This document shows, in pieces, positions 1 through 56,616 of a stretch of 64,000 bases of DNA. Location: contig JAJEKV010000093.1 of the NCBI GenBank assembly GCA_021234155.1, forward strand, positions 3,098,398-3,162,397, given 5' to 3'. The first letter of the stretch is position 1, and every line of letters begins with the position of its first letter. A program made the position numbers and the translations under genes. The stretch is from Isoetes taiwanensis (lineage: Eukaryota > Streptophyta > Lycopodiopsida > Isoetales > Isoetaceae). The notes under the pieces are model-generated. The model ran no database searches and had not been told where the DNA came from. It was given only the letters and a program-made list of their open reading frames with translations.

Positions 1-3000
1 CGCTTCGGCCAACTTGGTCACTGACCATCGCAAGTAAAACAACATTTCACAGTTGATTTAAAGAACATGTAGCCTTGAATTTGCCACGGCGCACCAGCCG
101 CCAGTAATGGTCGAAGTTCAGTGGCGTTAAAGATTCGTTCAATCATTGTCAGCCAATAATTATGTCATTGCATTAGGCTATGTTCAAAGAACAAGTTTCT
201 TAACAAGATTAGCGTTTGTGGTCATCAGCTCGAGCTCGGTGTCGCTCATCTTAGATCACGTTGTAGAGGTCTTCATTGTTCTGTGATACGATGTTGCAGT
301 TTAGTTTCGTTTCTATGACAGGTCGTCCGGTCAAATAAAGTTTGGTCTGTCGCATACCATTTCAGCTAATACAGCGGAGCAACCTTTTCTACTAATGCTC
401 GCCAGATGGTTTTGCATCTTGCAGATTCTCACGTTTTCGTTCTTTGCATTACCCATTTGTACCATTGGCTCTTCATGTCTCCACCTTGTTCATTTGCTCA
501 TAGACATCTTTATCTATCGCGAGTCAGAGCAAGCATTATTCATCCTCATTCCCTTCCGCAGTTCGTATTCGTTCTTCGACCGCAGACACGCGACGCTTAC
601 GCATTATTGCCATGTGCTGACAGATGCCGCATAGCACCCCGTAGCCAGTAATACGATTAAATTATACCAAAGCGCCGATTCATGCCGCTATCACCGGAAG
701 TATTTGGACACGGAGTACCGAAAGGACCGACACCATGTCTTGTGAGCATGATCGCCAACAGTAGTAAGACACCAAGATTTTATCAAAGCATGGTCGGAGA
801 TTATGGTCTTTGATATTCGTAAATGCAGCTGAGTGCTGAGCTGGTAACAGATTCAGTATTCAAAGCTCTTCCTTCCTCAGGTTTGGATAGTACTCAAAGC
901 GTCTGTGAGCTTGCCAATGCTTCCACCACGCCGGGTCTGGCAGAGTTTATCTCTGGTCAATGGCGTATTTAGGCAATATACAGGTGTTCACGATCATTGA
1001 TTGGCTGGGCCCCGGTCTTCGGTCAAACAAGATAGAGAAGAGAGTTAACATGTGTTCGCTTCTTTACCTAACAATTGTTCATGCTAAACCTTCCATTAAA
1101 TTCGTAGTTGGGGAGTCCTCAAATAAAGATTGCTCAGTACCATTTGCCGTCCAAAGACAGCACACTATTTTTGTTTAGCGATGACCTCGCATTACAAACG
1201 TCCCGGTCCATCGCCTTAGGTGCCTGGAAGAAACCCCCAAGAAAAACAACAGTTGCATTAGGGAGAAGGCGGATCGTCGAAGCCGCGCATTACCATGTCT
1301 CTCAGCCCCATACGTCACTTGGCATCATACTCGAAAAGGTATGGTTAGGGCATCCTCTCAGCCAATTCGAAATTTGTCGTTACTAGGTCATCGGGTAAGA
1401 TGAAATACGGTACCGTTATCGGCATGCAATATTTCGCAGAGCTAACCTCGCGACTATCAGCCTTTCTGTAATCGTCAACTGGTAAACATATGCCGCTGAA
1501 AGTTCAGCGAGACGAGCGCCGCACGACAAAGAATGAATATTCGCATGCCAACAAATATCAAGAATAGTTCTTCAAGGTAAGAAAGTATCGCTCGGTTAAA
1601 GCGCTAATCGTTAAATAAGATTTTGCCGCCAATCAGCAAAGCTGGTATGAAATAATCTTCACCGCGTGTTTTCATTTCTGGGACAGTGGTATATTCCCGC
1701 GATGTCGGTAGCCACATGCCCCCATAACAGAATAAAATCTTCCTTTCATCAAACTCACCATGTAGAACCGTCGCATTCATCATGTCGACTCTTTCGATCG
1801 AGTTCTCAATCTTTTCTTCAGAAAGATACCTTCCTCTTACTTGTTCTTTCTAAAGAACTCATTCATTTCTCGCTCCAGCGCGCCGTAGTTAAATAAACAA
1901 ATACGGTTATTGCTGGTGAATGTCACCATCCGCTTCGAATAAAGAAAGGTATTCTTATCCAATACTTCAATATACTGTTGATTTACTTTCTGACAACTTC
2001 TGCTCGTATCGACTTTTTGATTCCACCAAACTGTTCTTATTCAGCGCCGATATCTTTTCTTTCCTTTTTTCACCTGTTTACCATGTTTGACTGTTAACTT
2101 GGTCGGCCGACCATAATCAGATAGCAATTTCGGTATTCCGCCAGTAGAACTGCAATATTGCGCCCGCAAAATAGTTCAGTTGTTAATTTAATGGATGTTG
2201 TTCGATGGTGCCATGTCTTCCGGTGACGCTTCACGTCATTACGAGCCGTAATTGTCTCCATCAACGTTCAAAATAAAATCAAACCAGTTATATAACAGGT
2301 TTCGATCTCCTTTCAGCATTGTTGCTGAGGATGGAGTGAAAGGTACAAAGCTTGTCATCAAAGACTCACGCCTTCGATTATATTTAACCTTTTCCAAAGT
2401 TCGTTAGCGTATTGTTGCATCTTCGCCAAATAAATTACTCACTTGGTGACTCTCAGATTCACCGATAATCTACCATCGTAGCCCGCGGGAGGTCCAATAA
2501 TAATGTTCTTCCGCATCAGTCGCCATAAAATTAATGCCGGGTGACAATATTTTCTTCAAACAAAGACCGCCAGACTTTGTCTTCCGTCGCTAGCGGGATT
2601 GCATCGAAGTCTTCCATTTGCGCATGGACCATCGCTCAGTAGCTGTCGACCAAAAGGAATCGGGTGTTTCCGAGTAGATCAACGCTTCTTCGCATAGCGT
2701 TCTTTCCTGACCGAACAGCGCTATCAGCCCGTGTCTTCCTTCGACTCTCAGTTAAGAGTGCAGTTGGCTCGAATATACCGCATACCTTCTTTTCGATCGC
2801 ATCTGTTCTCATCTCTCGATCGGTTGGTCGCCATAAACATGCAGTACTTCCGTTATTGAAGTTCGCCAGTCTGCCTCCAGTTCGTCAATCACGTGCCACG
2901 ATTGTATGTTGAGTTTACAGCCGTCGCCAGCGCAACATTATCGAAGCTTCCGGGCAGTGCATAGAATGTCATCTCCGCTCACTTCCTGGTCGTTCTCTTC

Positions 3001-3900
3001 ATTCTAATTTCAGATAATGGCTATTAACGTTAGCTCACTGGCGTCATTCCAGCAGAATCTTCAATACGCTGAAAGTACAGAGCAATTATCGCCAGCAGCA
3101 GCATACCGCCGGTTGCATGAAAGCTTGCCGAGGTTATTAACCATACCTGGCCATTTGACTCGTTGTTATCGTTGCTGGCTCGCTGTGCCCACTCTTACCC
3201 TTCAGCTCTCTCAGCTCTTCTCTTCTCATAAACATGGGAGATGCGTACCGTTGCGCCATCGCAAAGAGCGACAAAATACTTACCACTTTTCTGCTTTCTC
3301 TAATCGCGAAAGAATATCATGCATCTTCTGATCGGTATCCGCCGGGTGCCACTAAGATGGAAGTCAATTTCGGCGTGTCGTCATCTTCGTCTGTAATTTC
3401 CCAATAAGTTTGTCCGCCGAGAATATCGAACAAGATTCGTGCAGGCATGGATAGATGAATTGTTCATATTTAAAAGCTTGTTACTTGCCGCGGTCGAAGA
3501 GGCCAATGCACTGAAATTCTGATTTCATCGAAGTCGACCAAGACTTTCGACTTTTTCAATATCTGTCATGTTGTTTTCCATTCTCGACAGCTGATTGTCT
3601 CCCCAGCTTCTGGCCACACTCTGGCTTTGTTTCACCAATAACGACCAAAGCTTCTGCGGGGATGATCCTTTTTCAAATCAGCCGCCATTTTTGATGGTCT
3701 CCATGCCTTACATCAGAAAGCATGGAATGGGGAGTTCATTCCACTTTGTTTTACCTCCTGCCGTTCATGATATTCTATTTCCTGTCATTCTGCTTCAATC
3801 AGATTCGCCGACGATTCCTCGTACCATCACTCCCAAATAAATTTTGCAATGTCGCCATGCCAGATATCGCCAGACCTGAACGAAAGATTAGCCTGCGAAT
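1..3900 (-). pseudogene. Degraded mirror copy of the 6.1-kb LINE (50,990-56,530 part)
   Basis: The first bases of the window mirror the 3' part of LINE ORF2. The stretch at 71-95 matches the reverse complement of 56,417-56,441, and the preceding run around 30-45 matches near 56,465-56,490. The left copy therefore begins within the element about 570 bp before its poly(A), and the mirror must continue upstream of the window or end at the contig edge. The inner boundary near 3,900 is interpolated from anchors, not seen. No LINE reading frame survives. Confidence 0.75.
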
Positions 3901-5769
3901 GTTACCAAATGCTGGCCGTACCCTGCCGAATGTCATGGTTTTGCTCAAGGAAAGAGCGTTTGAAACAGTTCACCGGCCACGCGGGTACCGTTTATGACTG
4001 CAGCTGGCGATGCGTACAGTCGTTAAACATAAAGACTGAGTTGTCAATTTAATGAGTGTCAGATAAATCAATACGCCATATTAGGTAAAGTTTTATGTGC
4101 TGGCGCACAGCTTGGTAATTTCATGTGCACAAGTTATTATTGTGCTTGGTTACCAGGAAGGTGCAATCCTCGCTGTGCAGCTCTTAGCATACTTAAGCGA
4201 TATCGATGTTTGCCTGTAACGCCAAACCGCTATAACCCGACGTCACCATCGTTAAAGCCGCTATCGGCAACGAACGGAAAGCAAAATTCGGTCGCATTGG
4301 AACCGAAGGTCATTCGTGTCCCTCATTATACCAAAGCCGCCGAAAGCCCGGGCACAACCTCGCCTTCGCTTCAGAATTGCCGACGCCAGTGTTTTATTCG
4401 TCCAGCGTTCGGTAAAGGCTCTGTTGCAGATGTTATCATCTCCGTAGCGACAACGTCAGTTTACAGAAAACTTAAGGATGGCAGGTCTCATATTTGAGGC
4501 ATGGTTTCCATTTGGACGCGATAGTTATCGCACAAAGAAAGTTAATGTCATGGATTGACAAAAACACCCAGCAATATTTGGGTCATTCTCACCGAGACAA
4601 AGGGTCCTCCCGCCGCACCATTTTCAGAAGATGGTTCTGCTATACAGCCGCACTTCATTCAAATGTTATTGCATTGGTTCGACTTCAAGTCCAAAATGCT
4701 GGTTGTTGTTGGCGGGAGCCAATCGAGACTTTAACCATCTAAAAATGCGCCCAGAAATGCCGTTGTTGTTGCCGCCACTTCATGCCGCCACTGCCTTCGT
4801 AGCACAAGGCCAAATAAATATTTGATGTCGGGCATTGTAAAGCAAAACCATGATTGCGCGCGACACGCCTTTACGCAATAAGTCCACAGGTTACGCTAAC
4901 ATTACGATAGCTGGACAGCATTGCGCGTCGGTTCATGCATAATTTTGCAGCCTTCGCCGCGGATCGTCGCTGACCGCCCCGAGTAATTATGGCATTCTGA
5001 CAGGCTCTTCCTCAGAATTGACAACAGGTCGCAATTTTCATGCAAGAGTTATCAACGGAGATTAACAACATATCATGAACATTATTTGGGATATAACACT
5101 AAAGCCCAGAAAACAATTTCTGCACGCTTCTAATGGTATGAACAGTAGCCTCTTAGGTTGGCGCAGCGCAGATTACATATTTAATGTCAATTGGTTGGCT
5201 GAAAGGGGTCAACATATTTTATACCACGGGTAAAAATACGCCGAAGACAATAAAATAATTTATATTAAACTGAGGAAAGGAGCATCACTTATCAGTGCTC
5301 ACCGCTTGAGATGCAATAATGCTGCAATTTTGGTACTTTCATGTTTAAAGTTACTTGTAAAGCTCTATGATTACGGGAATATCTTACGGTCAGTTTTAAG
5401 ACGCGTCACATGCAATTAAGGAGATACCATAATCACTTCAATGTATACCATAAAGCACATGTCAGCATCGATATAAGTTTACAGTTTGCGCCGAAAGTTG
5501 AACGCTGGAATTCGCAAGCGAATGTTGCCATCGTCAAATTCCTTATCATCGTACTGACCATCCATTCACTACGAATTTTTTCATGAAATTTCAGCGACAA
5601 ACATGCCGTACACCAAATCTGTCGATGACGCCACTGCGTTCTGGTATATCAACGGTACCACATGGCGAAGCTGCGATCATCAATATTTTGAGAAAATCGA
5701 AGCTTCGATAATTTTGCTTGAATGAGTGCATGATAACGCAAACATGTAACGCCATTTCACGTGGAGTGG

Positions 5770-7300: not shown

Positions 7301-9399
7301 TTTAAATTTATCATAGCAGACATGCAATGATATAAAGTGTCACCACTTTTGAATGTGAAACAAACAAGCTTCCAAAAACAATTTGCAAATGTCCCTCATG
7401 TATATGGATAGGTTAGGAGTGTTAGGGCTGCAGGGCATTCATAACAGTTCAAGGGACAGAAGAATGATTTACCAAAAATGGAGACATTCAAAATAACTTG
7501 ATTTAAACCGCTGGGTGCACCACCGTAACGCAAACACCATCGAAATGGAACAGCGGGGATAACTCAATCGCGAGCCAAAGTCGGTCAACGTGACTGATAA
7601 AACAATGCCGAATGAAATAAAGGGGCCACACTAAACCGACCGGGGAGAACGAAAAACTTCCGGCGACATTGCAGTTTGGGAATTTCATGTTTTTAAAGGC
7701 GCATTTTGTTAACCGCGTGACAATCTGCCTAAGGTCGAAATCATTACGAACACGCCATCTATGTTGGTCGCCGCTTCGCTGCGTTCAAATATTTGCAGCT
7801 TTGCAGCAGCCAACGACATGACCCGAAAGTTACAATCGCCACTGGCGAAGAAGACGTCAACGCCTATCATACTGCATTAATTATTCATTCACTATTTGTG
7901 CACCCTGTTAAGAGTTCGAAGCGCTGACAACATAGGGCGTCGTAAATCAGCAAGCCAGCCTGTGTTCATGGCGCGACAGCCAGAGCCATGTAACAACGAG
8001 ATGCGTTAAAGATGAGTGGGATACGTCTCAAAAAAAAAAAAGCTTTTAGCGAGATCCAATAAGACAAAGGTAATTGACAAGCAGTCTCTCAAAGAAAAGG
8101 AGTAATAGAAAATATTACAGCTGATGAGCACTTCAAAATGCGTTTAATGGTTACAGGCGATGTTAATATCTTCTACCACTTGCTTTTGAATGGTTTAATA
8201 ACGCCGTCGGGCGCTGATTCTGTTGGTCGCCTGAAATACGCCAGTAAACTATTTAATCAAGTTAGTCGAAAATGATACAGCTGGTCAGCACCGCGACCTC
8301 GCTTTTCGCCAACGCGAATTATATTGAGCACATAGCCGAAGCAGCATTTTGAAGCCATACTTCCAGGCTGAAAACGCGGTGCTCTTACGCCATAATATGC
8401 CGTATCTTCCTGTAATTTCCAAAGCCGAGAGCAAGAAATCAGCACTTCAGCCATAAACTCCGCCATTTAAACCGCCATAAATAAAACCCAAAGAACGTCT
8501 TTCGCTTCCGACGCTGTGAAGGAGTCGAGGTTGCGCAGTGTTGCCGCCGCGCATGTTCTACCGCCACAATCGTAATCTCCTCTTCCCCATTCCAATATCA
8601 CATGCCGTTAAAGATGTATACTGACAACATCGACTAGCGAGCCATCGGCACAGTCACAAAACACAAAGCAAAGAATTCAAACATAAAGGCGGTGCGTCAG
8701 CATACCCAAGAGCATCTTCGCCGTCAGCGCATCCACGCCTACTGCAATAAATTTTCCGATGACCGGACCGCCACCGCCAGAAATGTAGTGTTTTTTCTGG
8801 CAGATGAGATGTGCGTTTTCTATTATGAGATTTTCACCGCCACTCAGTTCACGCTTACTCGCGATGAGATATAGTTCGCCAAATTCTTCAAACATATCAT
8901 TTGCCCAGGATTACCAAAGAACTTTATTTACCCGCCGATACCGGTTGAGTTACCTGACAGTCAGCCGCTTCAATATGTAGTAAAGTCTTCGTAATATCGC
9001 ATTCTATTACTTTAGTGCCCGCAACCGACAAATCTTCATCTGGCCTCTATGCTTCACCAGCCTAACTCGGCAACAATTCCTGTTAAGAACGGTCAGTCTG
9101 ATCATCATCCCCAGAAACAATTAGAAATTGGTCAGAATCAAATAAACACGAACAAAGTCAAATAGACTATCGCTAATGTTCTGCTCATGCAAAAGTTGCA
9201 CTATTCTCGGCAAGCTGGGCAGGAGGAAGATATAGGTACCGGGAGATTTCCATCCATCTGTGTAGTGAGTTCAATAAAAGGAAGTCGAATTAATCATCTA
9301 AAGCCTGTTAAATACTTTTCAAAGGCTAGATTTCCGCCTTTTGCTTTTCACCGACATCATTCAATAAGAATTTATTCTACAATCATCGATTGGAAACTT

Positions 9400-11200
9400 T
9401 CATTCTTTATCGTTGAAAGATCAAGAACGGGTAGATTTCATCAATTCTTTGTTAAATCGCAGGGATCAACGTAGGCCTTTGTGAATGAAGATTACATTTA
9501 TCGGTTGGCCCAACACAAACGCCAGCCCTATTTCGTCATGTTTCATTTGTTTTACCATTCAAGACGCATGATTTCGCAGAACTGATTATGTGTGCCGTTC
9601 ACTCGAGAATGCCAGATTCTTCGGCAAACCACAAGTTCGACAGAAAGAAAATGTTATTCACGATTTACCGTTGGGTAAAATTTGTATTATCGTGATGAAG
9701 GAACTGTTTAAACGTATCATCCAGCAAACATCGGCAGTTCAAAATAGATTCAACAAGATGCTTGTTTGAAATAATCCTGATCAAATGCGGTACATCGACC
9801 AAAACGCTTCGATACAACATATCAATATAGGTAAATCGGGTACCCACACATCCGTTATATCCTATCAACTTCATTTGTACAAAATGATGACAGCCATCGG
9901 ACCAAATGTTTAATCAAAGTTTTGCCAAGCATCAACTAACAAAACGAAACGCTACTAAATCATTGCAGGACATCAGTAAAGTCACTTCTGGGATTGAGCC
10001 TGGTATATTACAACATTCAAATCTTCTGGACTATTAAAGGATGGTGGTGGCAGCATATTTCACATTCTTACTAATTTCCAAACCAAAACTTTTCACGAAA
10101 TTCAATTTGTAAAATGCGATCGTGAAAATAACGTTATCTTCGCCGAAAGTAGTCCTCGAAGATGGCCAGACTTTTCATGGGGTATCGGGCATTCTCGACT
10201 TCTCTACCAGATATTACAACCATTCATATCCTGGCCCGAGCTGCCACGCCCCGCGAGAAGGATTGAATGAATATGACAACGCCACGATGTCAGCGAACTC
10301 TGCTGTAAGTTACATTTGCGCTTCGACTATTTTCTGCCAAATAACGCCATGCCCACTTCAACGATCACCGAAGTGGTCAGCACGACAGCCGACAGCCCGG
10401 CGGGGCGCACGCCATTCTTTTCACCGCGAATGGCGAGCGCATTTTGCCTTAATAAAAGCCACAAAGGTATCGCCGCTCGCCATGGCCCGGGCGAGGATCA
10501 CCGTGCTATGGCCTATCGTGCCGAAATACGCCAGCGTCGCATATCGCGATATCGAAAATACCCATGGTTAGAAAACTATTAACATTCAGTTGCTTTTGCA
10601 AAATAAATGCGATGGGTATCGCAGTCAGCGGCGGAACTTTCGCGATGCAACACATGGTTACCTTTTGAAACATTGACCGGAAATATCGTTGGTCGAAGAT
10701 TCCATTGAGTTTGCTGAGCCAGCAATACGACAATCTAAGAGTACAAACGTCTTCATTGCCGATGCTGGCACAGGGTAATATCGTCGAGGGTATTTCATCA
10801 GACAGCGCCTTCAACACGATGACGAAGAGCAGACGTGAATTGCGTTTGCGATGTTCTCACGAATTAAAATCGGGTTTCACTGCAGATTGATATGCAATTT
10901 ATAGTCGGAGGGCAGGCGCAGCAGCAGCAGTAAGATACCGGCGTGGTTTTGATTTATGCCTACGTACTGCAGACGCGGTACCAAAGCCTGGCGATCCGCT
11001 TCAGCCACCCACGCAAGGCTTCGTCACCGAAAGGGGTAAGGAGTGAGCCGCCGAACAACAACAAACCTTCATGGATAAATAAAGAAATTATCGCTCAAAG
11101 GCGAACCGTTATTAGTTCGCGACCTGGTTGGTCGCTGCCTTTCGTCTCCGCCATTTCGCCTGCTTCAATACCTTCCGCGAATCATGGAAAGTCGTGATGC
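9400..11200 (+). pseudogene. Degraded mirror copy of the alpha-galactosidase gene
   Basis: At 10,261-10,312 the sequence mirrors the exon that carries the YLKYDNC nucleophile motif (42,013-42,071) plus its donor site, including a shared ATATGACAAC core. The coding frame is not kept. The limits are interpolated from neighbouring anchors. The 149-codon ORF at 10,122-10,571 is accidental. Confidence 0.75.
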
Positions 11201-23690: not shown

Positions 23691-24150
23691 CAAAGAGCTT
23701 AGTTTGAGTTGATGGACCACTTTCTCATCAAGATCCCCCTCGCCATCATCCCCACTCAGGGATTCCCATCGTAAAATATCAAACGCCTTTCCTCAATACA
23801 GCCTGGTCCAGGGTTCTCGCTAGCGTCCACCACCTTGGAGAGCCTAAGAGGGTTCCACAAACCCCAAATGCCCTCCTCAGAAGTTGACAAAGATACGAAG
23901 AACCTTTGACTGGTGTTTACACATGTTACCCCGCTGACAGCCACAACATGACCACCTCGCTGGCAACCACTACCAAGTAAGGTAACCTGACATGTGTTCA
24001 TCCCATGCATCCATGTTCGCCCATACCTCTATTGTGCCTCGCCTTTATAATCCAGCCTATCTAACCTGCAGTTGTCGTGAATGCCACGCACACCAATAGT
24101 GGTCGCCTCTAACAATATGTTCTTGTTCATATGTTTGAAGCCATGTTCTT
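23640..24150. other. First ~0.5 kb right of the apex; no assignable gene
   Basis: This is clean-looking plant DNA and the first stretch of the right arm. A minus-strand open stretch of 84 codons (24,010-23,756) is present and could continue the transposase-like region to its right, but I recognise no motif in it. It has a recognisable but damaged mirror image at about 23,290-23,548. Confidence 0.4.
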
Positions 24151-25998
24151 CTTAAACCTATCATATATGTGGCTTTAACTGATTCGCTAACATGTAAAGT
24201 GCCCAATAAGCCGCTTCTCTTCTAAGGCATGCTTGAAAGTCCAAGCTTTTTTCTTCATGTGGAAATGGTAGGATTCTATCCCAAGATAGTTTCTTGGTTT
24301 GCATGAGGATAAACCTAGTGGTCAGAATCCTAAGGAGATGTTTTTGGTCCACATTCTGTCCATGGTATTATACCTTCAGATCTTTTATATTTTTGCTTGA
24401 ACTCGAGGGAGTTCCCCAAGCCTTCAGATGACAAGATTCCAAGTATGCCTCCCAAGTCTACCATCACCCCCACGTAGTGCCGCATATAATGTGCCCCAAC
24501 CACTTGGAACATCTTGGCCCTTTACTTCTTGTCCTTTCACTGCCACTAACATCTCAACCATTCACAAAGCACAGCACAAATTATCGTCAAGTGGGCTGCA
24601 CTTTCTCAGAAAAGCCTAATTTCAAAATTTTGCATCATCCACAATGAAGTGCTAGTTGGTGTCCATGGACCCAGAACTATGAATGTGTTGTTTTACAAAG
24701 AAGTGGAGCCATGGCTGCATCTCTTCTACTTCCTGACTAGAAGTCAAACCCATGCAATTGGCACACCATTTCCATGACCTGGCCAAACATACAGGCAGAG
24801 CAGAGACCTAGCAATGTACTTGGTCTTGAAGGTTGAATCCATAGTAACAAGATTATGCTTCATGTCTCCAAAAAGAATTTCATTTGAATGGAGTGATAAT
24901 AGCCTTAAAGTGAATGGCCCATTTTGATACAAGAATACACCTTGGTGTAGAGAACCCATAACCTAATGTCGAACATTTTGGATGTAGCAACCAAGTGTCT
25001 CTAGTAAAGTTTGGCGGTGAGATGTTGTATATACTTCATCCATATCAAGAATCGGGTCACCTGCTTTCCTCAAGCGAGGTTCATACATTCTCCTCCCAGC
25101 GCTCCAATCCTCCTCATGTTTTGTCATGACCCTGGAAAGTGTATTTTGATGCAAGAAATTCCTGCCCGCTGCTTCTTCACCTGATAGCCAGGCCACATGA
25201 ACTTGGTTTTCACACCAATTTTCACTTCCATGGCATGCCCGCTCTTTAATCAATATGTTTCATTCCCATAATAAGTTATCTTAATCCACTCGCCTCAAGT
25301 ATAATCATTAGTTGAAAGTGGTACATGCAACATGCTTGATGATGAGATCCTCGAACCTCTTACATTGAAGTTTCCATCCGACTTTAGCCACCAATGCCTT
25401 TATTCTCATTAAGCACTCTGATATGGGCCCTCGAGGTACTTTGACTATAAGCACACGCCAAGAGTCGCAATTCCATACCCTTAATTCCATCCACACCAAT
25501 CTCAAACAACAGGCATAAAAACGAATATTAACGGATAACACTCAATGTAGTGTCGCTAAGATGGGCATTTTCAATAATTTTCCTCTCGTATCCCCTCAAG
25601 TAGCTTTGAAGACCCTTGTAGAAGTGGTGCCAGGCCATCATAGTTCTCTTCCATTTATGAAATCATGTTCTGTTGCTTGAATGTGGCTGCGTGGAGAGAT
25701 TGGGTCACGCTTCCACCGCCATCGAATTATTTCATCATCAACTGGAGCCACATTTGGAATAGGCTTTAATAGCTTCTCACTTTCCAATTCGACGCTTTGG
25801 AGAAGGGACTAGTATGAGGATGTTAAATGCCCGTGAGCCGGAGCTCTAAACATGTTCGGTGATTCCATGCATTGCCAGGATCTTCAACTAGCTCTAACAA
25901 ACAAAGAGCTCAAACAAACGAATCCAAAGAACACCTACATCTATTACTTACATCCAAGAGGCTCCGTGAGAATGCTCCTCCATGATCGAAGCCGCCAC
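24150..25998 (-). pseudogene. Putative MULE/SWIM-type transposase-derived coding region, broken
   Basis: Read on minus, several open stretches in changing frames seem to form one coding region. A possible first exon begins with an ATG near 25,998 (MEEHSHGASW) followed by a GTAAGT donor. A middle stretch (24,959-24,744) contains VTMDSTFKTK followed by GVPIAWV. After a one-base frame change near 24,750 come LTSSQEVEEMQPWLHFF and then FIVDDAK near 24,640. In Mutator-like transposases and the plant SWIM zinc-finger proteins derived from them, a DSTFGT-type motif, a GIPVAW-type segment and a later IxDDA-type motif occur in this order and carry acidic residues of the DDE core. No SWIM zinc finger was found. 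The family call is inferred from short motifs, and stops remain in all frames. It could be a decayed transposon or a domesticated gene with consensus errors. Confidence 0.42.
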
Positions 25999-25999
25999 C

Positions 26000-29345: not shown

Positions 29346-29349
29346 ACTT

Positions 29350-31847
29350 TTTGTTGCATGCTTATTTTTTTCTTAACTTTCATTATGCAAGGCTATGTGA
29401 AATATAGAGTTATTTTTGAATGTTTATTTTTAGCACACCAGCCCAACTAAGCCTACAGCCTTTCTTGCAATTCTAGCCTATCCACGAAATTTGAAGTGGC
29501 ACTTAAATTTGCCGTTGATCTAAAGATTTCAGCATCTAACTCAAGCTATGGAAATTAGAAATTGAACCAAGATGTATATGGAGATGCAATGGGTCATGGC
29601 CTTCAAGCACATCAATTCTTCTCCTCGGGTCCAATCGAACCCATTCTCCGCATTCATCCCGACGATGAACCTTCTCTAGAAAGACTTTATTGATCCGCTT
29701 TTATGGAAATGCTTTAGTTCTTTTGCTTCTGTCCCGATGATGTAGGGCTTTGCCTTGCTGTTTCAGAAGGATTCTTCCAAGCAAATTTGGATTTGCCTTG
29801 CTTCCAGATGCCTCAACTTCTTGATAAAGGCTATCAAATCATATTGATACCTCTCTGTTTTGGGCCCTTCTTCTAGTCCTGATATTCCTTTATCCGAAGT
29901 TTAAGGTGGTTAAAAGGAGCAAAAAGAGCTCTTATTTAATACGCTGGTCCATCATACTAAAACGAAAATGGATAAGCATTTCTGACCATCAACAAAACTT
30001 TAGGACTCGACTACACCCAACTGAGGTTGCTACCAGGATCGACGCCCAATTTGCTGCAGATGCTCTTGTAGTAACTGATCCGGTTTGAAGCCTGGGTAGT
30101 TTCTGAACCCTTATCACATTCAATAATATGGTATACAATGATTTTTGCAGTAATCTCAGATTTGGTACCTTTGCAGTTAGTATCTGCTTCTAAGCATCAG
30201 TTTTTCTATACCATATACCATACATGGACTAAGCTTAGATTTGATCGTCGTCGAAGGGAAAGTTTAGCAAAGTTTTGGTTATTGGATCTAAGAAGCAACC
30301 ATACTCTATAATATTGCTCCAGATCCCTGAATCCATTTCGACAAGGTATTTGGACTAAACCCTCACTTTCTTGGTTAGTGTAGATTCTAAATTTCCTTGT
30401 GTCAAATATAGTCTTGCACATATTCATCCATATGAAATATTGTTGTTCTGATATTTCAATGAATTTTCTCTTAGTTTCCTCTTTGACAACATGGCTTCAG
30501 GGGCATGAGGTTCTCAGAACAGATAGCATTGTGCATATCTATGCTCTATAAACCAGGTTAATATTTTCTCATTTTCTTCATAATAGAAACCAGAGCTTAT
30601 TTATTTTTCTATTCGAACGGTGGTACAAACTAAACTTGCAAACTTAACCTAGCTTCAACACTTTTATAGTCCTTTTGGTAATGCAGTTCAAGTATGGAAT
30701 CTGTGGGGTGAAGTTAACACCCGATCGATTTACTAGGTAAATAGCTTGCCCACTTTGTAATGACATTGGCTTTGTAGTGACAAGGAGGCTTTGTTGGCAC
30801 TGAGCTTAAAACTAAGAAGGCTATACTCAGAGCTTATTGGTCTTGAATTATGTATCTTACTATATATATGCAGTGGTTATATATGAAGTATAGAATTTTT
30901 TAGAGTCAAAACTTAAATCAAATTATTGTATGCTTTGTTGACTAACTAGCACTCATAATGCGTAAAGAACACTCATAAATTCTTTTTAACATGATAATCT
31001 TTAGTAATATCAAGTAATTAAACTTGCACACCTTTTTCCTATTGCGCCTCAAAATGTATAGACTACACAAACTCTAAGCGATAAGCAACATTCAATTTGT
31101 CCCTTATCACTTGTATCAATGTCACACTCTGAGGTGACAAAGAGGGAAAGGGATTCATTCATTATGCTTTACACATCGTCGAACCTCTTCTAAACCATTG
31201 CAACTCCATAAGCGCAGAAAACAAAACGAAATCCATCCAACAACCGTAAAACTGTACTAATACCAAGTAACTAAGTTAAATGTAAGCTCCAAACGTATAA
31301 ACATACATTCATTATGCTTTTTCTCACATTCAAAGACTCTTGGATAAAGTCCAGATAGCAAACATTTCATTATACAGGACCAACAACAACAGAAGCACAC
31401 CATCAAACTCCACTAGATAATCATGTCGAAATAAACTTCATGATTGTAACTTCTCTATCCCCACCCTATCCTTTACCCCCAGCCTGCATTTCTACTAGTT
31501 ATCTTGTTTATATGTGCAGCCTAAATCTACTACCAAGCCTTGACCAGTTTGGCCTTGCTAAAGCCTTATGGTGTGCCTTTTGCTAGTGTTTTAGACTTTA
31601 TTTTGCATGGTAAAAGGGGTCTTGCAAGGCCTGCTGCCTTCAATTTCCAACCCTGCATTCAACACATTCATAAGAAATTTATGTTTTCCTATCCTCATAA
31701 CATGGATCATAAGAGGAATATTCTATTGCTTGTACAGGGCATATTCTAGAGAAGACACGGCTATGGAGCTTAGCACCTTGCTCTTTCCTGCAGAGCTACC
31801 AACCCGAGTCCGGCGGTGCCCACATCTCTAGTAATCTCTGTTCGCCA
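29350..31847. other. Spacer and upstream region of the FAD synthase-like gene
   Basis: There is no recognisable gene. The last few hundred bases before 31,848 should hold the promoter and 5' UTR of the gene on plus, but I could not single out a TATA box with confidence. ORFs of 60-74 codons (29,906-30,088; 31,540-31,831) have no motifs. Confidence 0.35.
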
Positions 31848-40594: not shown

Positions 40595-40676
40595 GCAAAA
40601 TCTGCCTCAATAAATTTCAGATTGACCATGACGACCAGAAAATAGAGGTCACTTGGTTTATCACTTAGCCAAGTGG

Positions 40677-43249
40677 TCATAGAGGTTTGATTATCAGCAT
40701 CCTACAAGCATGGGCATTCAAGAGAGCTCCATAGCCATGGATAAAGCTGCCGCACTTTAAGGTGGTATGCCGCAAAAAGAAGCAAATTGGAAAAGTAATA
40801 TTGAGACTTAAAAGAAAAGGAAAGGCACCCACCAACCAAAGGTCACTTAATAATAACAGGAGTTCCTTGCTTGAGACCGATATCATGCTAGTGTACATTT
40901 ATCCATGAAGGTTTGTTGTTTCGCTCAACATCACTACAAAGAATCCTACCTCCGTGAGAGGGTCCAAAATTTCAAACCTTGCATTCGATTCAACAAACAG
41001 ATCATATTAAGATCGGTACCACACCGCAATTGCATGTAGAACATTCATCTAAAACCCCTACCTCCCCGACAGAGGCAATCACCTTGCTCGCTTTTTTCCC
41101 GCCTCGCACTCCCCAAAGCTATCCGTTGCATAATCAAGTCTCCGAAGTTAATTAGAATGCATAATTTCATTTGTTAAAAGAACCTTTGAATGCAAACACC
41201 TTGATTCACGCCTATCACTTCTTTGTTTGCAAGTATGTCATAATAATCCTTCGTTAGATTTCTCAAATCACATCCCATGATAAGGGGCGCCGTGATTGTC
41301 CTAAGACTGTTAGATACATAGTGATATTACCCTATTGCAAGCAATAAAGAAACAACAAACTAAGCAACCTTAATGAGGGCCCATAGACTGAAGTGCGACT
41401 TGTACTCTTCGATTGTCATATTGCCATTTCCAACCTCAAGCATGTCCGGATCTATTGATTAATGTAGTAATGAGTAAGAAGTTAGTGATCACAGAATTCC
41501 ATCTAACTACATATATTTCAGGTCAATATGGTTTCAAAAAAGTAGCTTGAAATTATGTATTTATGTACCGTTCCACCCGCCTGGCCTTGCATACGATGCC
41601 CATCTGTTATTCTGATCGGCATTGGTCAGCATGCTGCAAAGCCAACTAGGATGTTAATACATCAGTTTTCCTAACCCTTAAGCAGCAGTATATAGATTGG
41701 ACCTTTCCCAGCTATCACGAATGTCACTTGTTGTACGCCAACTATTTCCAATTTTGTCAGCCCATATAGCAGGATGATCATCACCCCTAGTTGTAACGCA
41801 GACAGAAATTTCAAGATACCTTGTAAACTTTGTCACAGCAAAAAATGCACTCACCATTCACAGAGTGAAAAGAATATCGGTCTGCCCATAGACATCAAAG
41901 CATCATGCATAACTTGGTATCTGCAACCATTCAGACAATCATTTTAAATTGACTATGTATTGTCAAGGCGTAAATAAGGCCAAACATCAGTTGAGGAAAT
42001 ACAAGTACTAACCTAGCTTCAGGTTCACTGTTATCATTAAAGCAGTTGTCATATTTCAGATAATCTATTTCCTGCAGACGTGAAAAAACCTCAACGTTTA
42101 GGATTCTATAGATCGTTTATAATATCTCTAAAATCTGAAGAGATCAAGAATGCAATACCCATGAAGCAAAAGTCCTGGCATCTTGGAGTTCATGTAAGAG
42201 ATCCCGGTTGTTTTGAGCATGTTAACCACACGATGCAAGACAAAGATTAAGATTTCATTAAGTTTTGGTTTGGAAATAAATTAAATAAGAATGTAAATAT
42301 GTACCTCATCACCAGAAATTCCAAGCTTTAGACCTTTGGAATGAACATAATCTGCAAGAGCTTCGAATCCCCTCAAGGGAATGTTAACTTTCTTGGTATC
42401 GATTACCCCCGCAAAACAATGATTTAGTATTGTTAATCAAGTTATGTTTGTTTTGTTAAGTTGATTGCTAACCGCTTGGTCGCTACTGGTTCGCCCAACA
42501 ATCATCCGCATTTTAACAAATGAGTTGATAGGATGTAGATTGATAAGAGGATGTGATAAGGTTTTCAGATTTACCTATATTGATATATTTGTAGCCAAGA
42601 GCAGCAAGTCCAGTGTACACCATCAGCTGCCAATCTATATGCATCAGTAGAGTTCTTCCAAACAAACGCATCTTAAATTTGAATCTAAGCCTGTTTCTCG
42701 AATGATTTGCTCGTTGATGTTCCCGGCAAAATGGTTCCTAGCTATTCCATCTGATAAAAATATACTTCAAAATTTTACCCAACAGAACTAAATCCGTAGA
42801 TAACATTTTCTTTTCTATTCAGACTTGTGGACACAGAAAGGAAGATCTAAAAACAGACAGATTCTCAAGTGAACAACACACATAAGTAGTTCTCTGCAAA
42901 TCGAAAATGCATCCTGGATGGTAAAACCCAAATGAGAAATATGGCTTAAGACCAAATAAAGAATTTAACGTTTGATATTGATAGCCAATAATTTTCATCA
43001 CCAATCACAAACTTCAGTTCTAAAGTACAATACAGTACAGTTTTCGATGATCCCTACAGTTCTTATGTAAAGGAATTGGCCTAGAATCTACCCCATTTGC
43101 GGTGTTCTTCCCAATCCATTGCCCAATAAAGATGCAGAAAAGTTTCCAATCCGATGAGTTACATTTGAAAACCGACCTTGGACATTGTCGAATCGAACAA
43201 AGACTCCAATTATGAAAAAAAGGAATGATAACTGAAATGGGTGATCCAT
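40677..43249 (-). CDS. Alpha-galactosidase, glycoside hydrolase family 27
   Basis: The enzyme hydrolyses terminal alpha-1,6-galactosyl residues of raffinose sugars and galactomannans, usually in vacuole or cell wall. Exons (descending, ends approximate): 43,249-43,092; 42,751-42,693; 42,626-42,575; 42,422-42,305; about 42,217-42,159; 42,071-42,013; 41,920-41,855; 41,786-41,703; 41,634-41,569; 41,451-41,369; 41,300-41,200; then C-terminal exons to the stop at 40,677. The start codon gives a hydrophobic signal peptide, then [11 protein letters not shown]. Family landmarks in order: [50 protein letters not shown] (nucleophile Asp), [50 protein letters not shown] (acid/base Asp), [10 protein letters not shown], and a C-terminal NAHACRMLI. 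Frames break in several exons, for example WNSW by one extra base near 42,741, and some splice sites are poor. It is either active with consensus errors or a recent pseudogene. The Gly to Glu change before IDYLKYDNC is notable. Confidence 0.85.
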
Positions 43250-45050: not shown

Positions 45051-46092
45051 TCCCACCTTCCTCAGTACTGAACGTATGTGGAACTTTTATACGTTGTTAC
45101 ATAGCTCTCTAGCACAAACATCTGCCCATCCATTGGTGACCCATTTTCAACAACATATAGGTTTGGTGCCTTAGCTATGTTGTCATCACTGCTTCAAGAA
45201 TTTCATAAACTTAAGGAGTCTTCATGGGTAAGTGGATGAATTAATACGATATGATAAGAATTCGTTGACCGTATAACATTCACTTGCCAAATTCAAACAG
45301 GTTATAACTTTCAAGTCACATGTGTGGTTTGACTGCCCGCAAAAACACCATCTGAGTCAGACACATACCGAGAAAGCCATAACCGATAACGCTCATACTT
45401 GCAAAAAATGTTCATGTGGTTTGTTATTATTCGTAAGATTGTCCATATATGCAGAACCGAACAAAAGAATATGCCTTTAAAAACATAAGAATTCCCAAAC
45501 TTGCAATATTAACATCTCAAAGGAGATTTTTTCTAGGTTCATCTTCCGCAAGGTCGAGGACCAAATTGTAAGCCCCCTTTAAAATTTCTATTCAACATTG
45601 ATATGGCCCTTTATTCAAGTCACATTTGAGTTCGACTACCCGAGATTGTATGGGGCCCAGTTCACTTTGCCTTCACTTTTTACGATTGGGTTGCCGACCG
45701 GCTGTCCCCACTTGCCTATTCCATTGGTTCCAGATTCGATGGTGACACACCCGATTTACAGGTGGTCACCTTTTCTCAACGGTTTAAATAAGTTATTTTT
45801 TAAATGTCTCAACATATTTTTACACATGGTATAAAATATGTTCTTGCTTCTAATCCCTTAGACCTATTTATGAATGCCCTTACGCTTTCTCCCGCCTCTA
45901 GCACCTCCTAACCTAAGGAATCTCTCCATATACATGAGGGACATTGCAAATTGTTTTCTAGAGCTTAGATTTGTTCACATTCAAAAGTAAGTCGACACTA
46001 TATCTAATGCATATCTACTATGTCCTAGAGTTCATTTGGTCCGATAGAGAAAGCATCAGGGCATGAAAGAGGTGTTGTATATCTAAATAGTG
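45051..46092 (+). repeat. Segmental duplication, copy A (interrupted by a LINE; resumes at 48,265)
   Basis: From GATCCCACCTTCCTCAGTAC onward, about 1 kb is shared with 48,601-49,470 in the same orientation, roughly 85-90% identical with one extra block of about 200 bases in copy A (around 45,540-45,770). Copy A is cut at 46,092 by the minus-strand LINE and continues at 48,265 with TTGCATGGTGTATTTGTTAATC, which is the continuation seen in copy B at 49,440. It is non-coding. Confidence 0.85.
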
Positions 46093-48264
46093 TTTTTTTT
46101 TTTTTTGAAGGATCAGGTTAACTAATATTAATTCAGAGAAATACAAGAACGCGGTATTAGGGTACTCCTCACCCACACCGGGCAAGGACCCACCTAATAA
46201 GTGTACCTATCTACAACTCATGCCACAAATCTCCCCGTGAGTGTCTACAATGTGGAGGGTTCTTTCCCCGCATCACGCCTTTGACCTCGCTCTTTCCGAG
46301 GGGATAGATATAACTTGTACCTCACCGGGACCAAAGCCCGAGGTCGCATCTCGATTCCCCAACACCTTCATGCGTCGCCGCCGCTTCGGATGAGCCACAA
46401 CAACCGTGCTTTACACGATGAAAGGCCGGACTCAAGCCGGGACCACCTACTAGGGTACACACCCCAAAAGGACCTCTTGATCAAGGGAGTGAGGTATGAA
46501 AGAGGCGCCGAACCCACCGCCATGCCTTTGGATATCCGAAAGAGAAACATGCGGTGTTCCAAGGTCTCCACCACGCCCACCACACATGGGACATAAGTCG
46601 CCGATCCGAGGGTTGATCCTGTGAACCCATGTGTTCACCCTCGAGAAACGGTGCACAATGCCCACGGCAATACCGAATCTTGGGGCTCTAGATTGGGTTC
46701 CACACCCACCTCCGCACAACGCCCCACTCATCCCCTGCACACCAAGACTCCATCCATCCCAGGGAGGCAACTCATCTTGAACCGCCGTAAGCTCATAACA
46801 GGACCTCACAAACTTTGAGGGATCCGCTTTGGGTGGCACTTCCACACACGCCCCGATGCCCGTGGGGTGTAGTGGTAGAGCATTAGCCACCCGCGCCCGG
46901 ATAGTAACGATCCCGCCTCCTCGGCCGAAATCTATAACGAAACAATTGCCGGGTGCTAGCTGCCCATCCATATACCAATCCGCCACCGCCAAAAACCCCA
47001 CCCGCCCATATCCGCTACCGACTCGGGATCAACAGAGGCCGCCAACCACAGTGCGTGTGGTCCAAGGGGATCCACCACGGCCCGCTCCTCAACCGAAACG
47101 CAACTGATGGCATCAAGTGCAAACAATGGGCCGGACTGCCCGTGGCGCAGGAGCCCCTTCAAAAACGGGCGAGGCATGAGCATATGGCCCGATATCCACA
47201 AACAACGCTTCAAGGGAGCCGCTGGGCACGGGCTTGGAAAACTATGGAATGAGACAGCGGCCGACCGGTGAAGCAAGACCATGCCCGAGTCGAAGGCGTT
47301 CTCAAGAATAGCAAAAACAAACTTAGACGGAGGACCTTTGCCATGCAAAACCAGATCAAAAAAGCCGAGTCCACCAAGCAATACTTTAGGGACGGACGCG
47401 ACTTCCACCAAAGCCACTTTCACTACCGCCCCCTCCTCATTGCCTCCCCACACAAAGTTACGAACCATAGCGAGAGATTTCCTGCACCTTACTTTCAAAG
47501 TGCGGGGATGATAGAGGCCATATAAATATGAGTCGAGCAAAGGACGGATTTCACCGTGACCTGCCGGGCAAACATGGACGGCTTCCCCCTTTCCACCAAT
47601 TGAGATGCCGACGCAGCCCAACCGTAATGTCTTCCCACAATCCCGAGGTGAGATATCAATGCCAAACGGAATGCCCAAAGCCTAGAGCATGTGCCCTCAA
47701 GCGCGCTGCGTTAAGCCATGGAATTGGGACACCACCACGCAGGCATGGGCTCACCGCCGACCACGATCTTGAAGCACTTCGACCAATTCATAAGGCAGCC
47801 CGTAAGCAAGGGAAAATGTGTCCAAAGCAGCTCCTTTCAGATTCAACAGATTCGCCTCATCCGCTGCCGAGAAAGAGGAATGAATCGTCAAGATAATCGG
47901 GACTCCCAATCTGGCTGCGATCCATCCGCCATCCTCGGTCCCTCCACCACACCATCCTCCACCCAAAGTCAACAATCTGGCGGAGGGCCTCCGCTACAAT
48001 GGTGAAGAGGAAGGGCGCCAGAGGGCATCCCTGACGAACTCCACGCCCCACCCCAAAGATCGGAGAGGACTCACCGTGACACAGGAGGGTCGCTCTGGCG
48101 GACACTAGAAGCTTCATAACCACTGCCGTAAAGGCCTCCCCACATCCAAAAGCCAACATCATCTTTTTCAAGAACGTCCACCGCACACTATCATAGGCCT
48201 TTGCGAAATCCAGCTTCAAATACACAATCTGCTGACCAGTTTTACGTGCCCAGTGAATGCCCTC
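46093..48264 (-). mobile_element. 5'-truncated L1-type LINE with 8-bp target-site duplication
   Basis: The insertion is bounded by AAATAGTG at 46,085-46,092 and again at 48,265-48,272, and begins with a 14-base T run (46,093-46,106), the poly(A) tail of a minus-strand element. Copy B of the surrounding duplication (49,430-49,450) shows the empty site. At 2.17 kb only the reverse transcriptase onward remains, as expected for incomplete target-primed reverse transcription. It is GC-rich compared with its surroundings. Confidence 0.92.
46450..48225 (-). pseudogene. LINE ORF2 remnant: reverse transcriptase and C-terminal zinc-finger region
   Basis: The reading passes through three frames. Frame 1 (48,225-47,857) holds LKLDFAKAYDSVRW, GVRQGCPLAPFLF and the catalytic box as YLDD (about 47,884-47,895) instead of the usual YADD. 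Frame 2 (47,678-46,956) holds the post-RT region with NFVWGG and a GGLG segment. Frame 3 (47,001-46,450) carries a zf-RVT-like region with CPMCGG and a later His. The order is that of plant L1-clade ORF2, lacking the endonuclease. The frame changes make it non-functional as written. It differs in sequence and base composition from the LINE at 50,990-57,104, so it belongs to another subfamily. Confidence 0.88.
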
Positions 48265-48600
48265 AAATAGTGTTGCATGGTGTATTTGTTAATCTTTCAT
48301 TTCCTACTTTTACATAACAATAGAAATAATTTAATTCCATATTTGCCATGGAAGATCCTCCTAAATGGAGAAAAAGGGCTTGGGCTATAAGGGTCTTTCA
48401 GCTTCACCTCCTAGAAGTTTCAATTGTACTAAAGGCAATTTATGCAATGCAAGTTGACCCATACAAATTCCTCTCCACTCCATGCAAGATATTTAAGTAG
48501 TGTTACATGACACGATTATCACACTCTCAATTCCAAACAAAAAATTTGTAAATCATGTCATTATATACTTATCAAACTTCCAGTTTTTCTCAAATATTGA

Positions 48601-52737: not shown

Positions 52738-55700
52738 ATGAAGATAGCCACATGGAATATGAGGGGAATCAAAGGCCTTCTCAAGAGGAAAAGAGCCTTA
52801 ATAGCTTTGAAAAGAAATGAAAGCGCACATTATTCTACTCCAAGAGCAATGTACTACACCGCTTTTGAGTCAAGAAACCTTGGACAAAGGGATTATGCCA
52901 AATGGAGACTCGGTCCGTCCATAGCGAGATGGGACCAAAGGGGAATCTGCATGGTTTGGCAGGATATGCCCGTTTGGAGAAATATTGTCACCCGGGGGCG
53001 TGGGATCAGAAAGTGATTGCGAAAGGGAAAGACACCATTGGTATTATTAATATATATGCCTCCACAGACTCTGATGAGAGGGAAGAACAATGGCTCCAAA
53101 TTAACAATTGGATCCAGGGTCACCAAGTCAAGAACTGGCTGCTGGCAGGAGATTTTAATAATACACCTACTTGGGAACAGAAACTTGGAAAACAGTTAAA
53201 TATGTCCAAAGGTGAGAGGAAGGCATGGGATCTTTTGATGACAAACTTTGTATACCTTCCTCCATCCTCAACAAGCAAATACTCATGGTCAAACAAAAGG
53301 AAAGGAGATCAAAGGACATATTGTCTATTGGACAGGTTTTATATATGGAACTCAGAGTTGGAGAATTGGGATAACCTAATTACATCATGTGACATTGGAA
53401 ACTCAATCTCAGACCATTTTCCTCAGTTCTTAAGTGACATGGCACCATCAAAGAAGGGAGGGGACAACATCCCATTTAAATTTAACACTGGACTGCTGCA
53501 TAATAAAGGATTTTGTGAGGCCTTCTCTGAGTTCTACAGGCAGTTACCGAAAATTCCTTTATCTGGTTCCATGAATCTGTTTGTCAATAGGATTAAACAG
53601 ATCAAAGGTTGGATTAAGGCATGGGGAAAAGATTGGAATTTGAAAAAAAGGAAAGAAAAACAAGAGGTATATGAAGCTATGAGAGAAGTTAGAAAAAGTC
53701 TTTTTCAAGATAAGGACAATATAGCCTGGCAAGAAAAGGAGTTTGAGTTGGAATCAAAAGTCAAATGTATTGAGGAGGCTGAGGCAAGAAGTCTTGCAAT
53801 TAGAAGTAAATGTAAATATATTAATGAGATGGATGATGCAGGGTCTGCCTTCTTTTTCAGAGTGGCTAAGAATAGGATTCTGAACAATGGAATTATTCAA
53901 GCTAAAAGGGATGATGGCGGTATTCTCCATAGCCAACTTGATATCCAGAATTTCTTTCTCAATGAGTACAAAAATTTGTTTAACAGCTACAGCGCATAGA
54001 TGAGAAAGAAATAGATGAGTTCTTTGCAGAAATTCCAAAAGGACCACAAATTAAGGAGGAAGACATGCTCATAGCTCCTGAGGAAAAAGAGATTAAGGAG
54101 ACTCTCCAGTCAATGACACATGGAAAGAGTCCAGGCCCGGATGGATTACAGCCAGAGTTCTACATGGAATTTTGGGATTTGATAAAGGAAGATTTTATTC
54201 TATTTATACAGGGAGCATGGAGAGCCAAGTACCTACACCCGGCAATAAATGCAGGTCATATTACTCTAATCCCAAAAGTAGAAAACCCTGCTAATTTTGG
54301 TGATTGGAGACCAATTTCTCTTACCAACACAACATACAAGTTGCTGGCAAAAATCTTGGCTAATGTGGGTTAAAGACTAGCCTAATGAAAGTTATCAATC
54401 CCCGCCACCGCTTTCTTGCCTCGTGAGGAATATTCTTGATAATTACATTGGCGATCCCGGTCTTCACCGGAACAAGCTGTCCCGGTCGTAATTGCATGCT
54501 TCTCAAGCTAGACTTCAAGCGAGCATATGACACAATTAGTTGGCAATTCCTAGAAAAGGCAATGGATCACTTGGGGTTATCTGCAAATGTATACCAGAAA
54601 GTGCTTGGATTTAATGCCATGGCCTCATCTGCAATTATTATAAATGGCAATCCTACTGAACAATTCCCATGTAGAAGAGGTGTGAGACAGGGATGCCCCC
54701 TAGCTCCATACCTTTTTCTAATTGTAGCAGAGGTGGTCACCAAATTGGTAATCCATATGCAGAACAAAGGGGATATAAATTGTTCAAGAACTCCCTCGGG
54801 TGATCAAGGTACCTTCTCCCTAATGCAATATGCTGATGACACCTTTGTTTTTCTTAAGCAGGGGGACAATAGCCTTCCAAACTTTCTCAAGATGATGGAT
54901 AGGTTTGGACACATGTCCGGGTCATGCTAAACAAAAAATAAGTGTGCAATAATACCGACACAGAAGAAACTCAGACTTCGTGGGATAAAGATCTTGAACA
55001 AGTGCTTTGGTACATCAATCCTTGGGATCCCCCTAGCTCTGAATTCTTCCCTCCGAGGTTTATGGGAGCCAATTGTTACTAGAATTAAAAAGAAGCTTGG
55101 TATGTACTCCTCCTCTCTATCTCCTGGGCGGGTAGAATTCAGATTGCTAATGCCGCCATTAGCAAAGACACATGTATATTTTTCATCCGCCATTGTTGGA
55201 GATAAAGCTTCCTATAACAAGATTGAGGCAGCAATTAGACAGTTTATTTGGCAAGGAATTCACAAGGTTGCTTGGGGAGACCTTATCAAACCTAGGAAGG
55301 AAGGAGGGCTTGGATGCAAAGATCTATTTACCCAAGCTCAAGCACTTGCTGCCAAAATGATTTGGAGGGCTATCCAAAATTCCTCATCATCTCCAGCCAT
55401 GAAACTGATAAGATACTGGATACAAGAGTCTTACCCTGTTGGCAGTCATACTCTAAGACATGAACTTCCAGATTCAGCATTCTTTCAATTTACTCCATGT
55501 CCAAATACTTCCATTGTGCTAAGGAGAATGTTTGAAGCATGGAATACAGCTGCTTTGTGTTATAGGCCCCCAATCATTGATACAAGATGCAAGGATATCC
55601 ACTTCTTCTGGCATCCTGAGATAATACATAGCAGCAATGACTGCCTGGCTCTTAAACATCCACAAAAGTACATGCAGTGGCATAAAGCAGGGATCAGGAA

Positions 55701-56616
55701 AATTGGAGATCTGAGGAAAGGAGACTCTGCTTGGAAGGAATGGGATGAGATATCCTTACTCACGAAAGGCTCACAATTAGATAAAGATATCTATGAGCTC
55801 ATCATGGATAAAGTGGGAGGACATGAAGAATTATGTGAAAGTACAAATCAGTGGCATCTAAAGGGCAAGGAAATATACTCTGTAAGGGAGATCTACAAAG
55901 GTCTGGTCAAGCACAAACCATCTAAAGCTACACAACTGTGGAACTGCAGAGAAAAAAGGTTAGCTTCCATATGTGCTAAAGGGTGGAAGAATTATGCAGC
56001 AAACAAAGTTAAGACTTTTGGCTGGCTGATCCTGCATCAGAGTTTGACCACCAATCATAGAAGAGCAAAATTTGACAAAAACATTTCTGAAACATGTCCC
56101 CTAGGATGTGGACAAGTAGAGACCTCTAACCATGTTTTCCTGAGTCCTAAGATCCAGGAATTCTGGAGTTGGATGGCTCAGATAAACAAAGGAGTCCCTG
56201 GAGAATCGAATATGCTGGTATTCCTAAACTCTGGTAACAGGTTACTAAATACTGTTAGAACCTTGTGTTGCTGGGCCATATGGAAACACAGAAATAGGAC
56301 TGCTATAGACAAGAAGAATCCAAATTTGATATGGTTGAAGCAAGTCTTTTTAAGCACACTTATAGACTCAGCCATTGCACACAAAGCAGCAAGAGGACAG
56401 GGTTATGACAACGAATGGCACGCCATTGGCAAATTCCAAGGAACACATGATTTCTTTGTGCTAAATCTAATCAGAATGATGTTGTTTTGCACAAAGTGCA
56501 AATTAGGGTCGAATAGAGTTGGGGCAGCCAGAAAAGACAGATGGGGTGGCGATGACTCGATGATGAGTTCTCCACTCTCTAGGAGTGAGCAAGAAGACAT
56601 GATCATTCAAATTTGA
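52738..56616 (+). pseudogene. LINE ORF2: endonuclease, reverse transcriptase and zinc-finger region, frame-broken
   Basis: It begins MKIATWNMRGIKG, as L1 AP-type endonucleases do. Endonuclease motifs follow: HIILLQEQ in an alternative frame near 52,830, then AGDFNN (about 53,148), LDRF (about 53,330) and SDHFP (about 53,409). The reverse transcriptase has GKSPGPDG, ITLIPK, WRPISL, KLDFKRAYDTISW, RRGVRQGCPLAPY and YADD (54,829-54,840). The last, long open part (54,994-56,616, 540 codons) covers the thumb/post-RT region and a zf-RVT-like segment (KTFGWLILHQSL, CPLGCGQVETSNHVF). Frame changes occur near 52,820, 52,900-53,000, 53,997, 54,370 and 54,935. The length of the intact parts points to a young copy. 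Mobilises element RNA by target-primed reverse transcription; inactive as written unless the breaks are consensus errors. Confidence 0.92.

Follow-up and report, generated by a model that had tools for sequence, protein, structure and literature searches.

The first 23.6 kb of the Isoetes taiwanensis DNA analysed here, a window of 64,000 nucleotides (C1104:3,098,398-3,162,397, within a scaffold of 4,071,646 bases in an assembly of 1,658,258,908 bases in 1,110 contigs), mirrors the sequence that follows it. Our analysis confirms that window 1-23,615, hereafter the left arm, repeats in reverse complement, collinearly but with very heavy noise, about window 23,627-56,490, the right arm. Judged by its sequence, this apparent 33-kb mirror is very probably a fold-back artefact of nanopore reading, by whichever route it came into the assembly, and not a biological feature.

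A mirror hidden by noise

A preliminary description of this DNA had reported a mirrored order of about 33 kb, with the first 23.6 kb set against the rest, and had proposed a gap-tolerant alignment of the reverse-complemented left arm to the right arm. We ran that alignment, and the mirror was recovered. Ordinary blastn found ten inverted matches at E<=1e-5, all of them pairing the first 23.6 kb with the remainder of the window. With a sensitive, gap-tolerant blastn between the arms, all 48 matches at E<=1 were inverted, and 45 of them lay on one mirrored path running from 470/55,829 to 23,480/23,797, along which the coordinate sum declines steadily from 56,299 to 47,277. Three matches lay off the path: 10586-10630, and also 5211-5280 and 7669-7710, where a repeat of the right arm was matched in its other copy.

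A banded pair hidden Markov model (pair-HMM) gave the same picture. Fitted to the reverse complement of 1-23,626 against 23,627-56,487, it gained 3,684 nats over independence, compared with -168 nats for a control in which the left arm was taken in flipped order; the band was guided by anchors, with its right-hand end extrapolated, and both fits were still creeping up at the last round (7 and 5 rounds). The alignment comprised 21,059 matched columns, 16,429 of them identical (78%; 22% mismatch), while 11,801 of the 32,860 right-arm bases had no left counterpart and 2,567 bases were inserted. All 36 exact 19-mers common to both arms fell within 1,500 bases of the mirrored line, compared with none in the control. 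No exact block of 28 bases is shared between the arms; thus the mirror is invisible to searches that need long exact words, whereas sensitive blastn finds it.

The left arm is richer in GC (0.458 against 0.402) and spans 0.719 of the length of the right arm, in agreement with the loss of about 28% described before, although both this ratio and the end near 56,490 are partly extrapolated past the last anchor. The destruction had been called uniform. This holds for identity, which was 0.79-0.83 in all seven features and spacers compared, but not everywhere: opposite 38.8-39.4 kb the left arm is nearly empty (173 bases, -60 nats), a local dropout, and at 46.6-47.8 kb the mirror is weak. Among the 13 stop-to-stop frames of at least 110 amino acids in the left arm, 12 were scanned against Pfam, and none matched a family at E<=0.01.

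Error signature, raw sequence and hinge

If the left arm were a poor nanopore reading of the right arm, its errors should bear the mark of the strand that was read. Expressed in the sense of the right strand, its substitutions comprised 1,387 A/G exchanges against 292 C/T exchanges and 247 transversions (posterior >=0.5), and the A/G excess was lopsided in each of six blocks along the arm. Clean copies of a long interspersed nuclear element (LINE) served as control, and their six pairs (L022-L025) spanned A/G to C/T ratios of only 32:58 to 55:53. They replaced an earlier control for natural divergence, the right arm against a second scaffold of the same assembly, C1046, which carries two further copies of the right-arm locus; that comparison (536:506 and 244:285) was dropped, both sequences being partly unpolished. 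The rate of A>G varied with the triplet, being highest in CAG (0.65) and lowest in AAA (0.06). Of 184 clean deletions, 168 removed one to three bases (96 a single base; the largest 7), and 30 of 41 placed homopolymers were shortened. Consistent CpG deamination was absent from the left arm: C>T affected 3.0% of 200 CpG sites versus 1.6% of 1,984 others, and G>A 3.9% of 207 CpG sites versus 12.9% of 1,751 others.

This pattern fits the read-strand bias described for nanopore data in the accessible text of PMC8486125, in which A/G errors are three to five times as frequent as transversions, C/T errors slightly raised and deletions most frequent of all. The confusion of A and G on one strand implies that the strand read was the minus strand of the window and, hence, that the left arm would be the second half of a leftward read. 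The earlier proposal that the left arm is the poorer second half of a fold-back nanopore read is thereby supported.

The part of the right arm nearest the left arm is itself of raw quality. Window 23,696-25,500 belongs to a repeat family, and we scored it against seven family copies over 1,815 columns, in each of which at least six of the seven other copies agreed. Substitutions unique to it numbered 307, with 83 bases deleted and 27 inserted, whereas C1046 had 16, 6 and 1 over the same columns; among the seven yardstick copies, scored similarly, unique substitutions ranged from 13 to 77 over 1,296 to 1,406 columns. The error of this first half is thus about 23% in 23.7-25.5 kb (417/1,815 columns). 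From 25,500 to 28,862 raw quality was judged against C1046 alone, with 50-66 gap openings per kb in the raw zone and 50 per kb in 26.1-28.5 kb. The change is abrupt: differences from C1046 copy 1 cease at 28,862, and none occur in 28,863-29,500. On the plus strand the raw zone shows a C/T excess of 112:50, which equals an A/G excess on the minus strand like that of the left arm; both halves therefore look as if they had been read on the minus strand. The second half is the worse of the two, being shorter and combining 22% mismatch and its missing bases, as against a total error of about 23% in the first.

Two independent bad readings of one sequence should each resemble a good copy better than they resemble each other. 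To compare the fits, we computed likelihoods in 600-base segments with identical parameters per candidate, excluding from the sums two of the 54 segments that straddle a border. In the raw zone the left arm indeed fitted C1046 better than its mirror partner in all eight segments (565 versus 256 nats), and a separate comparison with eight slightly different segments gave the same sign in every one.

At the hinge, the match to C1046 ends at 23,599 in the left arm (C1046:2,883,634) and begins at 23,627 in the right arm (C1046:2,883,619). Looser alignments on the right side extend to 23,605 and 23,567, so the position is uncertain by some tens of bases. No spacer was seen at the hinge. To its left the sequence represents the locus once more, on the other strand, and the turn, made within some tens of bases, falls inside the 200 bases expected of fold-back artefact reads. 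Copy 1 on C1046 shows no mirror about the corresponding point over 3.6 kb past the hinge, and the sole match of this stretch to the window is a repeat of 155 bases (window 26,176-26,330).

Probable gap filling and the alternative origins

Directly before window base 1 stand 30,167 N (C1104:3,068,231-3,098,397), 3.1 Mb into the 4.07-Mb scaffold. We take this run to be an assembly gap because raw-looking sequence flanks both of its sides. Over the last 1.9 kb beyond it, indels of one or two bases numbered 37-44 per kb against seven related copies, compared with a background of 10-24 in the 21 pairs of these copies, and the sequence on the far side thus looks raw as well. An unpolished read at a contig edge had been suggested earlier. 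Both are supported, but raw sequence gives way to polished sequence at 28,862 and not at the 23.62-kb hinge, and the supposed contig end borders an N run deep inside a scaffold, most likely a gap that a gap closer had treated.

According to the parts of PMC8566536 available, the assembly of I. taiwanensis (1,658.30 Mb in 204 scaffolds and 909 contigs) was built from LSK109/R9.4.1 nanopore reads basecalled with Guppy 3.1, by means of minimap2/miniasm, racon, pilon, Bionano scaffolding, two runs of LR_Gapcloser with pilon between them, and purge_haplotigs. LR_Gapcloser, as described in the accessible text of PMC6324547, splits reads into 300-base tags, maps them and discards tags in the minority orientation. 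Where no one read bridges a gap, the tool selects for each boundary with tags the read of greatest coverage within the gap and inserts it from its closest tag onwards, as far as the read goes; the remainder is kept as N. This partial-fill rule accounts for the anatomy seen here, a raw-like stretch (1-28,862) followed by N, with window base 1 as the presumed end of the read.

We therefore propose the following course, in which each step remains a reconstruction. Window 1-28,862 would be one raw Oxford Nanopore read laid leftwards into the scaffold gap. The read would begin in the locus to the right, its start concealed within polished contig, and run leftwards on the minus strand at raw quality. 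Near 23,615 it would turn and re-read the molecule along the complementary strand as far as window base 1. This second half would have passed the pore too fast, so that about a third of its bases went missing and A and G were confused. LR_Gapcloser would then probably have chosen this read because it spanned more of the gap than any other, and inserted it as far as it reached, with 30,167 N remaining. A rule that prefers the most-covering read may well favour fold-back reads whose second half cannot be mapped. The placement shares with an ordinary partial fill that a read is pasted from the boundary to its end and the rest left as N (PMC6324547, as far as available), and differs in that the read folds back, so that 23.6 of the 28.9 kb added are misplaced. 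We infer a single read, with a fold that arose in library preparation or in the pore and not in the plant.

Artefacts of this kind are known. In the accessible part of PMC12870357, fold-backs make up 0.55-0.6% of nanopore genomic DNA reads and are virtually absent from the HiFi data examined there; as here, such a read continues into a second segment that maps back to its own locus in the opposite orientation, with at most a little sequence in between. Those cases are single reads found by alignment, whereas ours is embedded in an assembly, and the noise of its second half defeats ordinary alignment. Spealman et al. likewise describe, for real inverted duplications in yeast, a second arm that is read fast, faultily and too short (PMC7229812, in the part available), and share with our case the drop in quality at the junction, the shorter second half and the missed and wrong bases. 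Their duplications are real, whereas no biological duplication is indicated here.

The yeast cases nevertheless show that noise alone is no proof of an artefact, because a real inverted duplication gives an equally bad second arm. The plant might, accordingly, carry a real, recent and near-perfect inverted duplication of about 33 kb with a spacerless centre, of which the assembly shows only a ghost damaged by nanopore reading. Since the locus is duplicated elsewhere, as two direct copies on C1046, a rearrangement is not far-fetched. We nonetheless regard this as very improbable. Copy 1 has no mirror past the hinge, and no spacer was seen at the turn. Reads starting in a true left arm should read well and would be expected to extend the assembly; instead there is N. 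The left arm is nowhere accurate and ends at the N run with no genomic flank beyond, and artefact fold-backs are frequent enough, given a gap closer that prefers the most-covering read, to supply such a sequence.

That an ancient palindrome stands here, its left arm decayed by mutation, has almost no credit, although decay would indeed leave a collinear, diverged mirror. The sequence as it stands contradicts it. The substitutions exchange A and G in both directions on one strand and do not favour C/T, CpG sites show no consistent decay, deletions are mostly of one to three bases, homopolymers are shortened, and identity is the same in features and spacers. A left arm decayed from the right arm should resemble the right arm best, and the eight of eight raw-zone segments closer to C1046 contradict this; nor does decay explain the abrupt step at 28,862. 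Neither a double-stranded mutation spectrum nor coding constraint nor patchy loss was found. Two arguments previously raised against a palindrome must, however, be withdrawn. The 31-base poly(A) tract said to be shared by both arms lies at 57,074-57,104, outside the mirrored part. The LINE said to be young has other copies in the genome, including both locus copies on C1046, and its youth is therefore no argument.

If the fold-back read is accepted, the question is how it was placed. We think that LR_Gapcloser probably did so. Contigs of miniasm are stitched raw reads. The pipeline also used this assembler (PMC8566536, in the accessible text), and the same read could have entered as an untrimmed contig end instead. 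This route seems unlikely to us, for the sharp step between raw and clean sequence lies 28.9 kb inside the edge and raw-looking sequence stands across the same N run, both as gap filling after polishing predicts.

Several observations weigh against the fold-back reading or its details. It is drawn from the assembled sequence, and N could alternatively mean withheld sequence. Outside the raw zone the likelihoods are nearly equal: in 28.9-38 kb (14 segments) the left arm scores 1,129 nats with the right arm and 1,165 with C1046 copy 1; in 38-52 kb (23 segments) 1,329 with the right arm, 1,375 with copy 1 and 1,322 with copy 2; and in 52.4-56.6 kb (7 segments) 361, 349 and 368. Its letters therefore do not assign the molecule to this copy. 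An error of about 23% is more than one would expect of an ordinary R9.4.1 read, and the yardstick has flaws of its own, with 64 and 77 unique substitutions over about 1,400 columns in two of the seven copies. The sequence beyond the N run shows only a moderate excess of C/T over A/G (506:216 in 7 comparisons, against 322:208 in the 21 pairs). At two other edges no fold-back was found in 10 and 20 kb, lengths that would expose no more than tails of some 4 and 8 kb; with one of three edges folded, the edges are too few for a rate. Heinz et al. found the signal unchanged at the breakpoints of eight artefact reads (PMC12870357, accessible part), and the second halves of Spealman et al. were only slightly shorter, against 28% here (PMC7229812, accessible part).

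If the fold-back reading is right, about 23.6 kb of the scaffold is probably not genome sequence, and easily overlooked as such. Other assemblies filled in the same way may contain more stretches of this kind, and genes or ages derived from them would be spurious. A one-strand A/G bias offers a simple screen for fold-back fills.

Copies on C1046 and other features

The features of the window are listed below.

Table 1. Features of the window, with the evidence on which each entry rests
Feature	Start	End	Strand	Evidence
Probable second (complement) half of a fold-back read, not genome sequence in its own right	1	23615	-	mirrored matches, pair-HMM, A/G confusion
Hinge, probable turning point of the read	23599	23627	.	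edges of left-arm and right-arm matches to C1046
Probable first (template) half of the same read, raw quality, heavy read error	23627	28862	-	family copies and C1046 comparison
Assembled contig mirrored by the left arm; two further locus copies on C1046	28863	56487	+	C1046 and LINE comparisons
LINE-type retrotransposon, frames broken, zf-RVT domain present; its 3' end absent from the mirror	51009	56616	+	frames, Pfam
Remnant of a second LINE reverse transcriptase, weakly mirrored	46450	48288	-	Pfam RVT_1, weak segments
Mutator-like transposase family member inside the raw stretch	23696	25500	-	family copies, MULE domain

The right-arm locus (window 26,175-57,700) lies on C1046 as two direct tandem copies (C1046:2,894,080-2,957,000). 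Within 31-38 kb, identity to copy 1 is 99.4-100% per 500-base bin. It is lower on both sides, which may reflect in part incomplete polishing and in part real divergence or conversion. A 7.8-kb insert on C1046 (2,886,268-2,894,079) is missing from left arm and right arm alike, and this common absence is the only structural tie of the left arm to this copy. The insert holds a long imperfect palindrome (2,890,356-2,890,894), and the repeats that flank it are inverted and about 155 bases long (2,881,010-2,881,163 and 2,894,081-2,894,238). In two stretches, window 40,600-41,200 and 46,000-46,600, the left arm scores 25 and 36 nats higher with a C1046 copy than with the right arm, whose consensus may contain local errors or a mixture of copies there.

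We also tried a triangulation of left arm, right arm and C1046, confined to positions that distinguish the latter two. With copy 1 it gave 113 sites at which left equals right, 19 at which left equals C1046 and 8 others (posterior >=0.9); with copy 2 the counts were 65, 4 and 1. The result was not used because sites chosen by alignment to the right arm favour the right arm, and the likelihood comparison did not confirm it.

Another N region of the scaffold extends over C1104:2,798,398-2,936,042; all 18 probes from 2,798,398 to 2,935,998 fell in N, the last one partly. Sequence restarts at 2,936,043, where 20 kb contained no fold-back.

The family of Mutator-like transposases recurs elsewhere: 40 of 322 candidates were scored, giving at least 24 further places with 69-76% over stretches longer than 1,000 bases, and the family copy L041 has a MULE domain (6.7e-17). 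The LINE at the right-hand end of the mirror carries a zf-RVT domain within 54,931-56,616 (6.6e-10), and the remnant of the second LINE an RVT_1 domain within 47,857-48,288 (2.2e-12). Pfam hits to PapG_N and Med15_fungi were below the cut-offs and taken as chance, and scans for tRNAs and Rfam families found nothing. The right-arm LINE differs from copies L022, L023 and L025 by 8.3-8.7 small indels per kb, and the cleanest pairs of LINE copies by less than one. At the same element, small indels in C1046 copy 1 (C1046:2,922,748-2,926,231) amount to 43-51 per kb relative to the LINE copies compared, and the A/G to C/T ratio is 112:56 against L022; this looks like another stretch of raw read.

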